From: an endosymbiont 'TC1' of Trimyema compressum
GTDB taxonomy: Bacteria > Bacillota > TC1
Reading direction: 5' to 3'
Assembly: GCF_001584725.1 (NCBI RefSeq)
Contig: NZ_CP014606.1
Coordinates: 1,331,501 to 1,395,500 of the forward strand
DNA: 64,000 nucleotides
Shown: positions 34,921 to 40,841 of the stretch, one piece after another
Layout of the letters: the number at the start of each line of letters is the position of its first letter
How positions within the stretch are numbered: the first letter of the stretch is position 1
Translations under genes and position numbers: made by a program
The notes under the pieces: model-generated
What the model was told of the DNA's origin: nothing
Database searches by the model: none
Seen by the model: the letters and a program-made list of their open reading frames with translations, nothing else

Positions 34921-36447
34921 TTAATGTTCTTCTTTTTTAATAATATAAATTGGTTCTTTTTCTTTTAATGCAGTAATAGCTTTTGGCAAAAGAGCTAATG
35001 CATTGTTTTTGTCTTGTTTCAAATACCCCCCTATAAGTAGTTCATCAATTAACAAACGAATTTCTTTATCAGTAACTTTTTTCATTAAACCAAATACAGA
35101 TAATTTATTTAAACCATTTTCTTTTATCTTCTTAATATTCTTACCTTTTAAAACATCAATTAAAATAGCTTGGCTATATTGTTTTTTCAAATAATATGCT
35201 GCTGATAATATTTTTTGAGCCTCCGTGGTTTTATCTACTTTAGGGAATTTACTTCTGCAATTACCACAGTTACCACAAGGTTCTATAGGTTCATTAAAAT
35301 GATTTAAAATAAAAGCACGATAACAACGCTTTGTATGGACATAAGAAACCATTTCTTTAATCCATTCCTCTTTCTCCTTTAGGCGCCACCGAAAATAAGC
35401 TCTTTGCTTTGATAAAAAATTTTGAATAGGTACATCTTTTGGTCCAAAAAGTAAAATACATTCACTTTCTTTTCCATCTCTGCCTGCTCTGCCAATTTCT
35501 TGGTAGTAGGCTTCCATACTACTAGGCATATTATAGTGAATTACATAGCGAATATCCTCTTTATCCATACCCATTCCAAAAGCATTAGTAGCAATTAAAA
35601 CATCATACTCATTGTTAAAAAAAGCAGCTTGAACTTCAGTCCGTTCCCACTTCTTTAAACCAGCATGGTAACCACCAGCTGCAATACCTTTTTTTACTAA
35701 TTTCTCTGTTATTTTTTCTACATCGTTTCGGGTACTACAATAAACTAACCCCCTATAACCTTTATCTTTAATTAAAACATACTTAAGAACCCATTTTGTT
35801 TTATCTTCATACAATTTTACATCCATAAATAAATTTGGACGATCAAAAGAAGTTTTAAACAAAACAGGGTCTTCAAGTCCTAACGAACTATATATCTCTT
35901 CTAAGACATTGTCATTTGCTGTTGCCGTAAAAGCAGAAAGAATAGGTTTTTTTGGCATTTTTGCTAATACTTTTCCAATTTTCTTATACTTGGGTCTGAA
36001 ATCATGACCCCACTGAGATACACAATGAGCTTCATCAATGGCAATATGGTCAATAGGCAATGTTTTTAATAATGGATTAAAGTCTTCTGAAAACAACTTT
36101 TCGGGAGATAAGTAGACTACTTTGTACTTTTCTGCCTCTATTTCTTCTAAAGCAATTCTCATTTGTTTAGGTGTCAAGTGACTGGTAATAGCAATCGTTG
36201 GTATTCCTCTTTCATTTAAAACACTTACTTGGTCTTCAATTAATGCTACTAAAGGGGAAAGCACTAAAGTCATATTAGGAAAAAAAATACTGGGCAATTG
36301 AAAACATAGGGATTTACCTGTTCCTGTAGGTAAAATCCCTATTACATCTTTTCCTTCTAAAATTGTTTTTATAATATCTTCTTGAGGTCCTCTAAAAGCA
36401 TCATAACCAAAATACGCTTTTAGAGCTCCTCTTAATTCTTCTGTCAC
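34921..36447 (-). CDS. recQ: ATP-dependent DNA helicase RecQ family
   Basis: 3'-5' DNA helicase. Motifs: FRGPQEDII, Walker A GILPTGTGKSLCFQLP, DEAH box IAIDEAHCVSQWGHDFRPKY (with the RecQ aromatic loop), SAFTATA, ATNAFGMGMDKEDIRYVIH and QEIGRAGRDG. The zinc domain cysteines (KRCYRAFILNHFNE, PCGNCGNCRSK) and a winged helix follow; no HRDC domain, so this is the short RecQ type. I favour a GTG start at 36447, ten bases after GGGAGAG and beyond the stop of the ATPase gene; an ATG at 36489 overlapping the upstream gene is the alternative. Co-transcribed with the ATPase-like gene. Confidence 0.93.
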   Translation of the reverse strand: MTEELRGALKAYFGYDAFRGPQEDIIKTILEGKDVIGILPTGTGKSLCFQLPSIFFPNMTLVLSPLVALIEDQVSVLNERGIPTIAITSHLTPKQMRIALEEIEAEKYKVVYLSPEKLFSEDFNPLLKTLPIDHIAIDEAHCVSQWGHDFRPKYKKIGKVLAKMPKKPILSAFTATANDNVLEEIYSSLGLEDPVLFKTSFDRPNLFMDVKLYEDKTKWVLKYVLIKDKGYRGLVYCSTRNDVEKITEKLVKKGIAAGGYHAGLKKWERTEVQAAFFNNEYDVLIATNAFGMGMDKEDIRYVIHYNMPSSMEAYYQEIGRAGRDGKESECILLFGPKDVPIQNFLSKQRAYFRWRLKEKEEWIKEMVSYVHTKRCYRAFILNHFNEPIEPCGNCGNCRSKFPKVDKTTEAQKILSAAYYLKKQYSQAILIDVLKGKNIKKIKENGLNKLSVFGLMKKVTDKEIRLLIDELLIGGYLKQDKNNALALLPKAITALKEKEPIYIIKKEEH

Positions 36448-36454
36448 TTGATTT

Positions 36455-38578
36455 TTACTCTCCCTTTTTAGTGAAGAAACTTCTAACACTTTGTGATATT
36501 CTAAAGCAATTTAAAATAGTTAATAAAGAAATAGCCAAATCAATTAAAATTGCTATCAACATGACACCTGTTCCAACATAAGCAAACATTGCAGTTAAAA
36601 TAATCACAACTTTTGTGATTAAGCTAATTACAATATTTTGTTTAATCACAGAATATGTTCTTTTTCCTAATGAAACACTTTCATAAACTAAATTTAAATC
36701 CTCTTGAAGCAATACTACATCAGCAATACTGGTTACTTTATCTAAACTCCCTCTTAAATAGGCAAAGCTTACATCAGAGGCTACCATTACGGGTCCATCA
36801 CTAATGGTATCTCCAATAAATCCTACTGTTTTACCTTTTAAACGAATCTGTTCTTTTCTAACTTTTTCAACTTTCTCCTCAATATTTAAATCGCCATAAA
36901 TATTTCTGACTTTTAAATCTGCTAAAGCTGAACGAGCACCCATAGGCGTCTCTCCTGTTAAAACAGCAACACGATTCACCTTTAGTTTTTTTAAGTTTTC
37001 GATTACTTGAGCTCCTTCTTCTTTTACCTCTTCACTTAATTGAATAGCGCCGACATACTCCCCGTCAACTGCAACATGGGTCAAAGAGCCCTCTTCATCT
37101 AAATAAACATCAATATCATTATCATATAGAAAAGATTCACTTCCTGTTAAAATAACTTTATTATCATAAACAGCTACTGTTCCTTTTCCTCTTTCTTCTG
37201 TATATTCTGTTAATAAATTTTCATCAACCTTTCCATCACCAGCTTCAAAAGCTTCTTCAATGGCTTGGCCAATAGGATGATTGGATCTGTACTCTCCTAC
37301 TGCTGCATATGATAAAAGATCATCTTCTTTAGTGTTTTTGTATGGAATCACATTCTCAACTTTATATACACCTGTTGTTAAAATTCCTGTTTTCGTAAAA
37401 AATAGTGTTTTAATTTTTCCTAAGGCATCAATGGATCCAACTTCTTTAATAATTAAACCTATTTTCTTACCTAAGCCTAAAGCATAATTATAAGCAATTG
37501 GTGTTGAAAGCAGCATAGCCCACGGGCAAGAAACTGCTAAAATAACCAGTCCTTTATAAATAAAAGATTTATCTAAAAATGGCATACCTGTAATTAATGG
37601 CCCTAAAAATACAACAAGCAATGCTAAAATAGCAATTATGATTAAATACCATCTACCAATTTTCTCAATAGTTTTAGAAAACACAGATTTTTTAGCCATA
37701 GCTTCTTTGATTTTTAAAATCAATGTATTAACAGTTCCTTCATTATAAGGTTTTGTCACAGCAATATGTAATGGTTTTTCAGTATTAATGCCACCGCTTT
37801 CCACTGAACTACCTGGTTCAGCAAACATAAAATAACTTTCATTGGAAACAGGACTCATATCAACATTAGACTCCCCTTCAACAATCATGCCATCTAAAGG
37901 AATAACTTCACCAGGTCTAATTAAGATAGTATCCCCAACTTGAATTTCTTTTAACGGTATTGGAAAAACCAATGAGTTAGTCACTTTATAAGCAGTGGTA
38001 GCTTCTTTATGCAATGTTTCTGATACATCTCTTTCAGTAATTAAGGCCGCTTTCCAGCTTAGAAAATCAGCCGCTAAATAAAGCAACATAACTAACATTG
38101 CCTCAATATAATAGCTAAGGGCAAAGGCTCCAACAACAGCTAAAAATATTAGTAAATTCTCATCTAAATGCTTCTTTTTAAAAATACCAATATATACTTT
38201 TCTAATTAATACTTTACCACTTAAAATTAATCCAAATAAGTAGCCAATCCATTGAAAGGCTGCTGGTACAAAATAATAAGTTAATACATAGAAAATCAAA
38301 CCAATACCACATAGTATTAGATTCAAACGGTTAGCTTTTTCAGTTTTAATACCTTCTTTATCCACTATTTTAATTGGTTCCTGGCCATTTAAAAGAATTG
38401 TTGCTATTTCTCTTTCAATAAATAGTTCATCAGCATCCTTATCATAAGATACTTTAATCTTTCCTTGGAAACTGCTATAACTGGCTTTTAATACATCCGG
38501 CAATCGTTGAATTTCATCAACAGCTCTTAAAACAACTTCTTTATTCCCTTTGTAGTCTATATAATAACTTTTTACCAT
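36455..38578 (-). CDS. P1B-type ATPase homologue with altered catalytic motifs (pseudo-ATPase)
   Basis: 707 residues with heavy-metal P-type ATPase architecture: an N-terminal HMA-like domain without CxxC (residues 1-70), paired spans at about 85-130 and 140-175, an actuator domain (VGDTILIRPGEVIPLDG at 214-230), spans 307-365 with SCPWA in place of CPC, a P/N-domain region, and final spans 645-692. The key catalytic residues differ: the phosphorylation motif DKTGT is FTKTGI (Asp replaced by Thr395), the actuator TGES is SNES (245-248), and GDGxND is GDTISD (589-594). The N-domain HP pair (SNHPIGQAI, 434-435) remains. The reading frame is uninterrupted. A phosphoenzyme cycle is therefore unlikely; a binding, regulatory or scaffold role is inferred. 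Its start overlaps the upstream gene by seven bases. Confidence 0.9.
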   Translation of the reverse strand: MVKSYYIDYKGNKEVVLRAVDEIQRLPDVLKASYSSFQGKIKVSYDKDADELFIEREIATILLNGQEPIKIVDKEGIKTEKANRLNLILCGIGLIFYVLTYYFVPAAFQWIGYLFGLILSGKVLIRKVYIGIFKKKHLDENLLIFLAVVGAFALSYYIEAMLVMLLYLAADFLSWKAALITERDVSETLHKEATTAYKVTNSLVFPIPLKEIQVGDTILIRPGEVIPLDGMIVEGESNVDMSPVSNESYFMFAEPGSSVESGGINTEKPLHIAVTKPYNEGTVNTLILKIKEAMAKKSVFSKTIEKIGRWYLIIIAILALLVVFLGPLITGMPFLDKSFIYKGLVILAVSCPWAMLLSTPIAYNYALGLGKKIGLIIKEVGSIDALGKIKTLFFTKTGILTTGVYKVENVIPYKNTKEDDLLSYAAVGEYRSNHPIGQAIEEAFEAGDGKVDENLLTEYTEERGKGTVAVYDNKVILTGSESFLYDNDIDVYLDEEGSLTHVAVDGEYVGAIQLSEEVKEEGAQVIENLKKLKVNRVAVLTGETPMGARSALADLKVRNIYGDLNIEEKVEKVRKEQIRLKGKTVGFIGDTISDGPVMVASDVSFAYLRGSLDKVTSIADVVLLQEDLNLVYESVSLGKRTYSVIKQNIVISLITKVVIILTAMFAYVGTGVMLIAILIDLAISLLTILNCFRISQSVRSFFTKKGE

Positions 38579-39864
38579 TTGTCTGACTCCTTATTATTTT
38601 CTAACAAAAATGGAATCATCACTCCATTTTGTAATCTCGAATCATTAATTTCCAATGTGGTTTTTTCAAGTTGTGCTCCCGTACTAATATCATACACACA
38701 AACAACACTCGTATTCTCCGGACCTTCATAGGCACCTAAAATGCTTCCAATAATAATAAATATTTCATTTAAAAAGTTTTCTCTAGCCTCTTCGTTTTTA
38801 GTTTTTTGTTCATAGGCCTGATGAAAAGCATACATTTTACCTTTTTCAATTAAAACATCTTTTAATTGATATTCTTTTTTCTCAACAGTATTAGGAACAA
38901 TATCAATAGTTTTTGTAATTACTAGATTTTGATCATATTGATAATCTTTTCCAGTAATTGAATGTTTATTGTTTTTCATTATGGTACTAATGTGAAAATT
39001 CAAATCATCTACTGCAACTCTATTAAAAATCTCATCTGCCACTATATTTTCTTTCTTTATTTCTGACATAGTCGTTAAATTATAAAACAATACTGTTTCA
39101 ATATCTTTATTATTATAGGCTAAAGATAAAATATTATCTTTAATTGCTAAACGTTTAGGTGAAGGCTCATTTTTACCTTCAATTGGCATAATAGCTTCAT
39201 TAATTTTTTCTCCTGTATTTAAATCAAAACCTTCGATTACATATTGATTATCCTTGAGATTTTTTCCTACAATTAAGTAAAGGACATTATCATAAATAAA
39301 ACCGCTGTCAATCCACTGACCCTTTGTTACATAATCTCTAGTTTCACCATCTGTTCCCTTTTTAACAGAGACTTTTAATTCTTCCGACTCAATAGATTCT
39401 TCCTTATAAAAATCCTTATCAATATTATTTGTAATCAATATTGCATAATCACCTGAAATTGATGTGTAGCCAGCTTTAGAGTTTTCCAATAAAGAAGTTC
39501 TTCCCATATCAAAACTCTCAATTTTACCTTGTTGAGTAATCAAAGTATTATTTTTTTGTTCTGGATTGCTCAAGAGAATATTTTTTTCAAATTTGGATAA
39601 ATAACCTTTATCCGACATGCCTTGAGTCAAAAAAAGTTTTTCAACTTGTTTTCCATTTTCACCAAAAACGATACCATAGGCATCATAATTTCTAATATTG
39701 CTATAAACTATACAGTATTTACCACTGCTTAAAGACCCAAACTCTCCTTTACTTATTGAGGCCTGAAGCTGGTTTCCCCCAAAGATACCCATAGCAATAA
39801 AAAGAATAATGAAAACTAAACTAATTTTAATAATTTTTTTTGTTTCATTCATCTTTTCAAACAT
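38572..39864 (-). CDS. Membrane-anchored extracytoplasmic protein, probable beta-rich fold, unknown
   Basis: 430 residues. A single N-terminal hydrophobic segment (residues about 12-32, IIKISLVFIILFIAMGIFGG) without a clear lipobox suggests an uncleaved anchor or signal peptide, with the remainder outside. The rest is rich in short strand-turn repeats (for example SGFIYDNVLYLIVGKN, FDLNTGEKINEAIMPIEG, VVCVYDISTGAQLEKTTLEI) reminiscent of beta-propeller/PQQ-like blades. I do not recognise a family. It overlaps the ATPase-like gene by seven bases, so the two are translationally coupled and probably act together. Confidence 0.75.
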   Translation of the reverse strand: MFEKMNETKKIIKISLVFIILFIAMGIFGGNQLQASISKGEFGSLSSGKYCIVYSNIRNYDAYGIVFGENGKQVEKLFLTQGMSDKGYLSKFEKNILLSNPEQKNNTLITQQGKIESFDMGRTSLLENSKAGYTSISGDYAILITNNIDKDFYKEESIESEELKVSVKKGTDGETRDYVTKGQWIDSGFIYDNVLYLIVGKNLKDNQYVIEGFDLNTGEKINEAIMPIEGKNEPSPKRLAIKDNILSLAYNNKDIETVLFYNLTTMSEIKKENIVADEIFNRVAVDDLNFHISTIMKNNKHSITGKDYQYDQNLVITKTIDIVPNTVEKKEYQLKDVLIEKGKMYAFHQAYEQKTKNEEARENFLNEIFIIIGSILGAYEGPENTSVVCVYDISTGAQLEKTTLEINDSRLQNGVMIPFLLENNKESDKW

Positions 39865-39953
39865 ATGTTGATTATATCAAATATGAAAAGAGATATAAAG
39901 ACTTTGAATATAAAATATGATATAATGGCAGCTATACAAGGAGGGTCTTGGTC

Positions 39954-40841
39954 ATGGATTACAAAAATGTCATGCTTATTTATAATAGAGAAGCTGGATC
40001 AAATAAAATTGAAAGCGTTCTCCCTCAAATGGTGTTAGCCTATCAAAAAAAAGGATTCTTAATGATTCCTTTTTGTTTAAATATATCTTCAAAAGAAGAC
40101 ATTTTACCTTTATTAAAAAACAATAATTATGCAAAAATCATTATCTCTGGTGGAGATGGTTCAATTAACTCCATTATTTCATTTCTTCTTAGAATTGAAA
40201 TATTTGTTCCTATTGGCATTCTGCCAGCTGGCACTTGTAATGACCTAGCCAATAGTTTAGGTTTACCTAAAAACATTAAAAAAGCCAGTATGATTCCTTT
40301 AAAAAACAAAACTCTACCTATCGATATAGGCAGAGTCAATAATTCTCACTATTTTTTCAGTAGTCTGGCAGGAGGCTATTTTACAGAAATGTCCTATAAG
40401 ACACCGACTGCTGCTAAAAAAAACTTAAAGCAATTTGCTTATTATTTTAAAACAGCTACTCAATTTTCTAGTTTTAAACCATTTAGCCTTAAAGCAACAA
40501 TCGATGGTCAAGTTATTGAAAAAGATGTGCTTATGTTTGCTTTTAGTACTGGCACTCAAATAGCAGGATTTAAAAACATAATACACGATGCTTCCCTAAA
40601 TGATGGAAAACTAGATCTCTTCCTAATAAAAGTTTGTTCCTACTTTGAATTACCAGCAATTCTATTCAACATAATGGCTGGTCAATTCACTGAAAGTAAG
40701 TATGTGACTCATTTTCAAGGAGAATCCTTTCATTTAGAAGGCGCTACTGATGTGCCAATTGTATTTGATGGTGATAAAGGCATAAGTCTTCCACTTACTG
40801 TCGAGGTAATAAAAGAAAAAATCTCTTTATTTATCCCTTAA
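39954..40841 (+). CDS. Diacylglycerol kinase-like lipid kinase (YegS/BmrU family)
   Basis: 295-residue DAGK catalytic-domain protein. N-terminal MLIYNREAGSNK, then the nucleotide-binding IIISGGDGSINSIISFL, GILPAGTCNDLANSLGLP, PIDIGRVNNSHYFFSSLAGG, and C-terminal NDGKLDLFLIK with VPIVFDGDKG. These are the conserved YegS/DgkB motifs. The ATG at 39954 has GGAGGG eight bases upstream; a TTG at 39948 is too close. Lipid substrate (diacylglycerol, sphingosine-like or phosphatidylglycerol) is not determined. Confidence 0.9.
   Translation: MDYKNVMLIYNREAGSNKIESVLPQMVLAYQKKGFLMIPFCLNISSKEDILPLLKNNNYAKIIISGGDGSINSIISFLLRIEIFVPIGILPAGTCNDLANSLGLPKNIKKASMIPLKNKTLPIDIGRVNNSHYFFSSLAGGYFTEMSYKTPTAAKKNLKQFAYYFKTATQFSSFKPFSLKATIDGQVIEKDVLMFAFSTGTQIAGFKNIIHDASLNDGKLDLFLIKVCSYFELPAILFNIMAGQFTESKYVTHFQGESFHLEGATDVPIVFDGDKGISLPLTVEVIKEKISLFIP

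Follow-up and report, generated by a model that had tools for sequence, protein, structure and literature searches.

A conserved and very probably non-catalytic relative of P1B-ATPases encoded beside recQ in the Trimyema compressum endosymbiont TC1 and its sister genus

The window analysed here is a stretch of 64,000 nucleotides from the genome of endosymbiont 'TC1' of Trimyema compressum (contig NZ_CP014606.1, positions 1,331,501 to 1,395,500). It carries an open reading frame of 707 codons, with an ATG start and no internal stops, whose product we call the pseudo-pump; it overlaps a 430-residue frame by 7 bp and leads into recQ with an overlap of 35 bp, both overlaps being real, as had been described. 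The features of the locus are given in Table 1. The best family of the pseudo-pump is TIGR01525, heavy metal translocating P-type ATPase (score 367 bits, cut-off 346 bits), with Pfam matches to E1-E2_ATPase and Hydrolase; the three orthologues from the sister genus that were tested scored 325-337 bits with TIGR01525, slightly under the NCBIfam cut-off. The structure was modelled with AlphaFold2 from an alignment of 20 sequences, canonical P1Bs among them, and the model (pLDDT 80) presented the whole P-type layout. Its best Foldseek match was ZntA (4umv, E 3e-38, TM 0.61/0.70), with canonical P1Bs present in the alignment behind the model. The frame, the profile and the fold thus bear out the original prediction of an intact gene with full membrane and domain layout. 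By descent and fold we place the protein in the P1B family, and by its residues it does not read as a working P1B pump.

Table 1. Features of the pseudo-pump locus and related loci. Positions are those of the window; entries beginning with L lie outside it.
Feature	Position	Strand	Remarks
recQ	34921..36489	-	overlaps pseudo-pump 3' end; adjacency conserved in 6/6 genomes
Pseudo-P1B-ATPase, 707 aa	36455..38578	-	HMA-like domain, TM helices, A, P and N domains
GDTISD for GDGxND, residues 589-594	36797..36814	-	position 590 is D/E/N in orthologues; TISD fixed
LTGE for LTGD, residues 540-543	36950..36961	-	E543 invariant in 6/6
TKTGI for DKTGT, residues 395-399	37382..37396	-	Thr395, invariant in 6/6, at the site of the phosphorylated Asp
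CPW for CPC, membrane, residues 351-353	37520..37528	-	[CS]PWAMLLSTPIA in 6/6
SNES for TGES, A domain, residues 245-248	37835..37846	-	SNE[SN] in 6/6 orthologues
HMA-like ferredoxin-fold domain, N-terminal, residues 1-74	38357..38578	-	AlphaFold2, hhalign, relatives' HMA sequences
Orphan 430-aa protein, N-terminal hydrophobic segment	38572..39864	-	between ancestral promoter and pseudo-pump, this genome only
Divergent promoter region	39865..39947	.	alignment, conserved in 6/6: CATTATAnCATATTT, AAAGTCTTTATAT, TTTGATATAAT
yegS/diacylglycerol-kinase-like gene, divergent	39948..40841	+	adjoins pseudo-pump in five sister genomes
ArsP-like permease half pairs	L036:13117-14135, L037:5590-6605, L038:5064-6083, L040:6605-7623		sister genus
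Canonical ZntA/CadA-like P1B pseudogene	L046:7337-9147	-	window's genome, C1 about 447.3-449.1 kb
ArsR-type neighbour of the broken canonical P1B	L046:9426-9782		window's genome; still open
P1B-ATPase with DKTNT for DKTGT, G006	L071:10245-12320	-	family f2
P1B-ATPase with DKTNT for DKTGT, G008	L074:2479-4545	+	family f2

The four motif changes put forward in the original prediction (DKTGT to TKTGI, TGES to SNES, GDGxND to GDTISD, and CPC to CPW) all read as claimed. The loss of TGES is partial, since T and G have changed but the catalytic Glu, E247, is still present. Two further losses were found in addition to these four: the change of LTGD to LTGE and an HMA-like domain without CxxC. The possibility, raised beforehand, that another alignment would place a DKTGT-like Asp nearby was discarded; at that position, where 30 relatives align without ambiguity, there is none. 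At the CPC site the second Cys is gone in all six proteins, and both are gone in 2 of the 6. The first Asp of GDGxND is a Mg ligand in P-type ATPases, and its variation among the orthologues would follow if the protein no longer depended on Mg-phosphoryl chemistry.

The N-terminal domain shows the order beta-alpha-beta-beta-alpha-beta in the AlphaFold2 model, and its alignment by hhalign to the HMA profile of the relatives gave an E value of 5e-5 with a probability of only 68. Aligned with the HMA sequences of relatives, its CxxC positions are occupied by N12 and V15; the CxxC of the N-terminal HMA domain is common, although not universal, among P1B-ATPases. Other residues are kept in all six proteins. 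These are, in the N domain, E429, H434, P435, G466, and G479, which from P1B structures we take to line the ATP pocket and which could be retained for folding; in the P domain, K396, T397, G398, the TG of LTGE, K569, and D594; and in the last membrane helix, K656 and D680. Despite its dead chemistry, the P domain is conserved more than any other domain of the pseudo-pump.

The class to which the genome belongs is represented by ten genomes in two families, six in f1 and four in f2. A full-length orthologue was found in each of the five sister-genus genomes, which belong to the same family f1, with 49-53% identity to the window copy, and all six proteins read SNE[SN], [CS]PW, TKTG[IV], LTGE, and G[DEN]TISD. 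The recurrence of the same substitutions, which it had been proposed to look for, is therefore complete in the sister genus, and because it is seen in five orthologues at this identity the motif changes are not due to chance. The pseudo-pump is absent from all four genomes of f2, and when 399 genomes of the phylum were searched by profile (E<=1e-115) none beyond the six gave one; a contig search for further copies returned only a distant canonical P1B. The DNA pattern F-T-K-T-G-[IVM]-[LF]-T matched the six pseudo-pump genomes and one more, G383. The match in G383 was rejected as a chance one, there being no P-type ATPase frame at that place.

In the tree the pseudo-pumps form one clade with support of 100, with a long stem (1.7 to 6 changes per column, by model) and short inner branches (0.03 to 0.8). 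The clade comprises one small family, six genomes in two genera, so that its conservation rests on few lineages, and a single origin in or before the ancestor of f1 would explain it most simply. Regarding this origin, AU tests compared two candidate sister groups, the canonical P1B of these genomes and the f2 P1Bs that read DKTNT, and preferred neither. Canonical P1Bs share 202 invariant columns, of which all six pseudo-pumps retain 65 and all six have lost 95; one identical replacement residue occupies 50 of these 95 across the six proteins, and the identical replacements include D395T, D543E, T245S, G246N, C353W, G591T, and N593S. Taken with the tree, this pattern suggests a constraint that changed, was fixed in an ancestor, and was then held.

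Selection was measured as dN/dS (Nei-Gojobori) in the closest sister-genus pairs, where dS is about 1. The values were 0.063-0.096 for the pseudo-pump, 0.066-0.070 for recQ, and 0.100-0.117 for the canonical P1B of those genomes; the pseudo-pump thus resembles recQ and lies below the canonical P1B. Purifying selection on the pseudo-pump is strong within the sister genus, and the ratio, proposed earlier as a check on the gene, lies far below 1 among these orthologues. Between the window copy and the sister genus dS is saturated (pS about 0.7, pN about 0.3). For the window's own branch we infer selection only from this pN against pS, from the open frame, from the six indels that separate the window copy from that of G001, all in frame and without any frameshift, and from the window copy's retention of 70% of the invariant columns of the sister genus. 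These observations point to a fixed, lineage-specific state of the pseudo-pump and not to decay.

The neighbourhood was compared in the six genomes. In the sister genus the order, read beyond recQ only where the retrieved DNA extended far enough, is yegS (divergent), pseudo-pump, recQ, an ArsR-type gene, two ArsP-like permease halves, an EamA-type gene, uvrA, and uvrC; the EamA-type gene is missing in G005, and in G001 a large extra gene intervenes and the ArsR-type gene is not called. The permease genes near the ArsR-type regulator are adjacent pairs of half size (about 159 and 179 aa). The window retains yegS, the pseudo-pump, recQ, uvrA, and at least part of uvrC, and near its recQ no recognisable trace of the ArsR/ArsP block was found. 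In the intergenic region on the yegS side, -10-like elements point both ways in the alignment of the six genomes; the -10-like TATAAT at 39876-39871 on the minus strand is, by a scan on its own, not above chance. The ATG of the 430-aa frame lies just 6 bases past this -10-like element, and a leaderless transcript or an internal start is possible.

The original prediction coupled the pseudo-pump to this membrane-anchored 430-residue protein as its partner, and this pairing does not hold. In the five sister genomes yegS abuts the pseudo-pump directly and the 430-aa gene is absent; the pairing occurs in none of the relatives, the conserved neighbours being the promoter with yegS on one side and, with a close or overlapping junction, recQ on the other. 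No homologue was found in 60 relatives nor in the remainder of the class, and no significant match in Pfam, NCBIfam, or PDB; a single-sequence structure model was uninformative (pLDDT 38). Because it is absent from every relative, the gene is either an insertion at this locus or one that evolves very fast, and not an ancestral partner, and it was rejected as a coupled partner of the pseudo-pump.

Considering these results, we hold with high confidence that the pseudo-pump is a conserved non-catalytic protein. The reading that we favour as a whole, by a slight lean, is that a heavy-metal P1B-ATPase would have lost phosphorylation and metal transport in an ancestor of family f1 and been fixed as a pseudo-pump, acting as a nucleotide-responsive regulator or scaffold. 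The protein would fold as a ZntA-like pump and its N domain would still bind nucleotide. Because Thr395 replaces Asp, phosphorylation would be barred, and hence there would be neither an E1-E2 cycle nor movement of metal. The A, N, and P domains would shift posture with the ligand and act on a putative partner. The proposal that the intact gene is kept for a non-catalytic job is thus strengthened by the shared substitutions and the low dN/dS, but its metal-sensor option is weakened because CPC and the HMA CxxC are lost. A nucleotide-binding regulator or scaffold fits the residues better than a metal sensor, although for this specific role we would put the chances slightly short of even. More tentative still is the idea of a receptor derived from a pump, a stand-alone bacterial pseudo-P-type ATPase in the membrane that would sense nucleotide level or a cation as its ligand through the frozen transport fold and signal through the A and P domains.

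Four other explanations were weighed. The membrane domain is complete, and K656, D680, and the PWAMLLSTPIA helix are invariant in the six proteins, as would suit a passive channel or leak, that is, a gated or ungated membrane pathway for an ion other than the soft metals. A simple channel, however, does not need the extensive conservation of the cytosolic A and P domains, and no ion-selective signature was seen, so that we consider it improbable. It is also rather unlikely that the pseudo-pump pairs, as a non-catalytic subunit or dominant regulator, with the canonical P1B of its own cell. Each of the five sister-genus genomes has a second, canonical P1B, next to which at least four of them carry an ArsR-type gene, and the ArsR-type gene and permease halves beyond recQ could be counted in favour of such a pairing; nevertheless, the canonical and pseudo-pump loci are adjacent in no genome, and the window's genome has a broken canonical pump yet an intact pseudo-pump. 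In that broken copy TGES, CPC, DKTG, and GDGIND are still readable, yet frame changes and stops divide it into five pieces, some of which breaks could be assembly errors; the P1B with good motifs is thus broken and the one with dead motifs is whole. The ArsR-type neighbour of the broken copy remains an open frame.

We doubt strongly that the pseudo-pump is an active transporter of a non-metal or a hard cation with altered chemistry, based on another nucleophile or on a phosphorylated Thr395. What defines a P-type ATPase is its Asp nucleophile, which counts against this option. Thr395, E543, and TISD are fixed and not drifting, and the greater part of the P domain is conserved, but at the first Asp of GDGxND the orthologues differ (D, E, or N), and TGES has lost its Gly and TGD its Asp as well. 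Finally, a relic whose open frame awaits its first frameshift would suit a genome that is decaying or indel-rich, where the canonical P1B is broken, long-ORF coverage is lower than at the sister pseudo-pump loci, and ArsR/ArsP are lost beside recQ, but this reading, scarcely credible here, is already contradicted at family level by the same substitutions in six species, the sister-genus dN/dS, and the absence of frameshifts against G001.

The reading of a fixed, non-catalytic regulator or scaffold matters beyond this locus. Pseudoenzymes are familiar among kinases and proteases; to our knowledge they are almost unknown among P-type ATPases, which are defined by a single phosphorylated Asp. A pseudo-pump that is family-wide, selected, and stand-alone is a natural test of the P-type scaffold without its cycle, and the profile-based label "heavy-metal translocating ATPase" would mislead for it. 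If the receptor idea were true, it would give the P-type ATPase superfamily a first class of bacterial pseudoenzymes.

By comparison with known systems, the pseudo-pump shares with the P1B-2 pumps ZntA/CadA (Zn/Cd/Pb exporters; TIGR01525/TIGR01512; 4umv) the full membrane and A, N, and P layout, the HP and GxG of the N domain, the Lys and Asp of the last helix, and an N-terminal HMA-like fold, and differs from them in having no DKTGT Asp, TGES, CPC, TGD, GDGxND, or HMA CxxC. The P1B-ATPases of f2 that read DKTNT are presumably active because the Asp, TGES (SGES in G006), CPC, GDGIND, and the HMA CxxC are all present. Their HMA domain falls in the same alignment frame as that of the pseudo-pump, and the G006 copy is next to uvrA at about 2 kb from recQ, a position like that of the pseudo-pump in f1; it is a possible positional relative. 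A stand-alone bacterial pseudo-P-type ATPase was not found in the open-access literature searched, which does not prove its absence, and a term search of a 2023 review of P-type ATPases (PMC10654040) yielded no passage on inactive members. The only comparable loss of motifs in the literature searched is that of Plasmodium guanylyl cyclase beta, which carries a degenerate P4-ATPase domain (PMC6592433). There too a P-type module was retained after most of its signature residues were lost (PMC6592433), but that module is eukaryotic, of the P4 class, and fused to a cyclase, whereas the pseudo-pump is a stand-alone bacterial protein of the P1B class.
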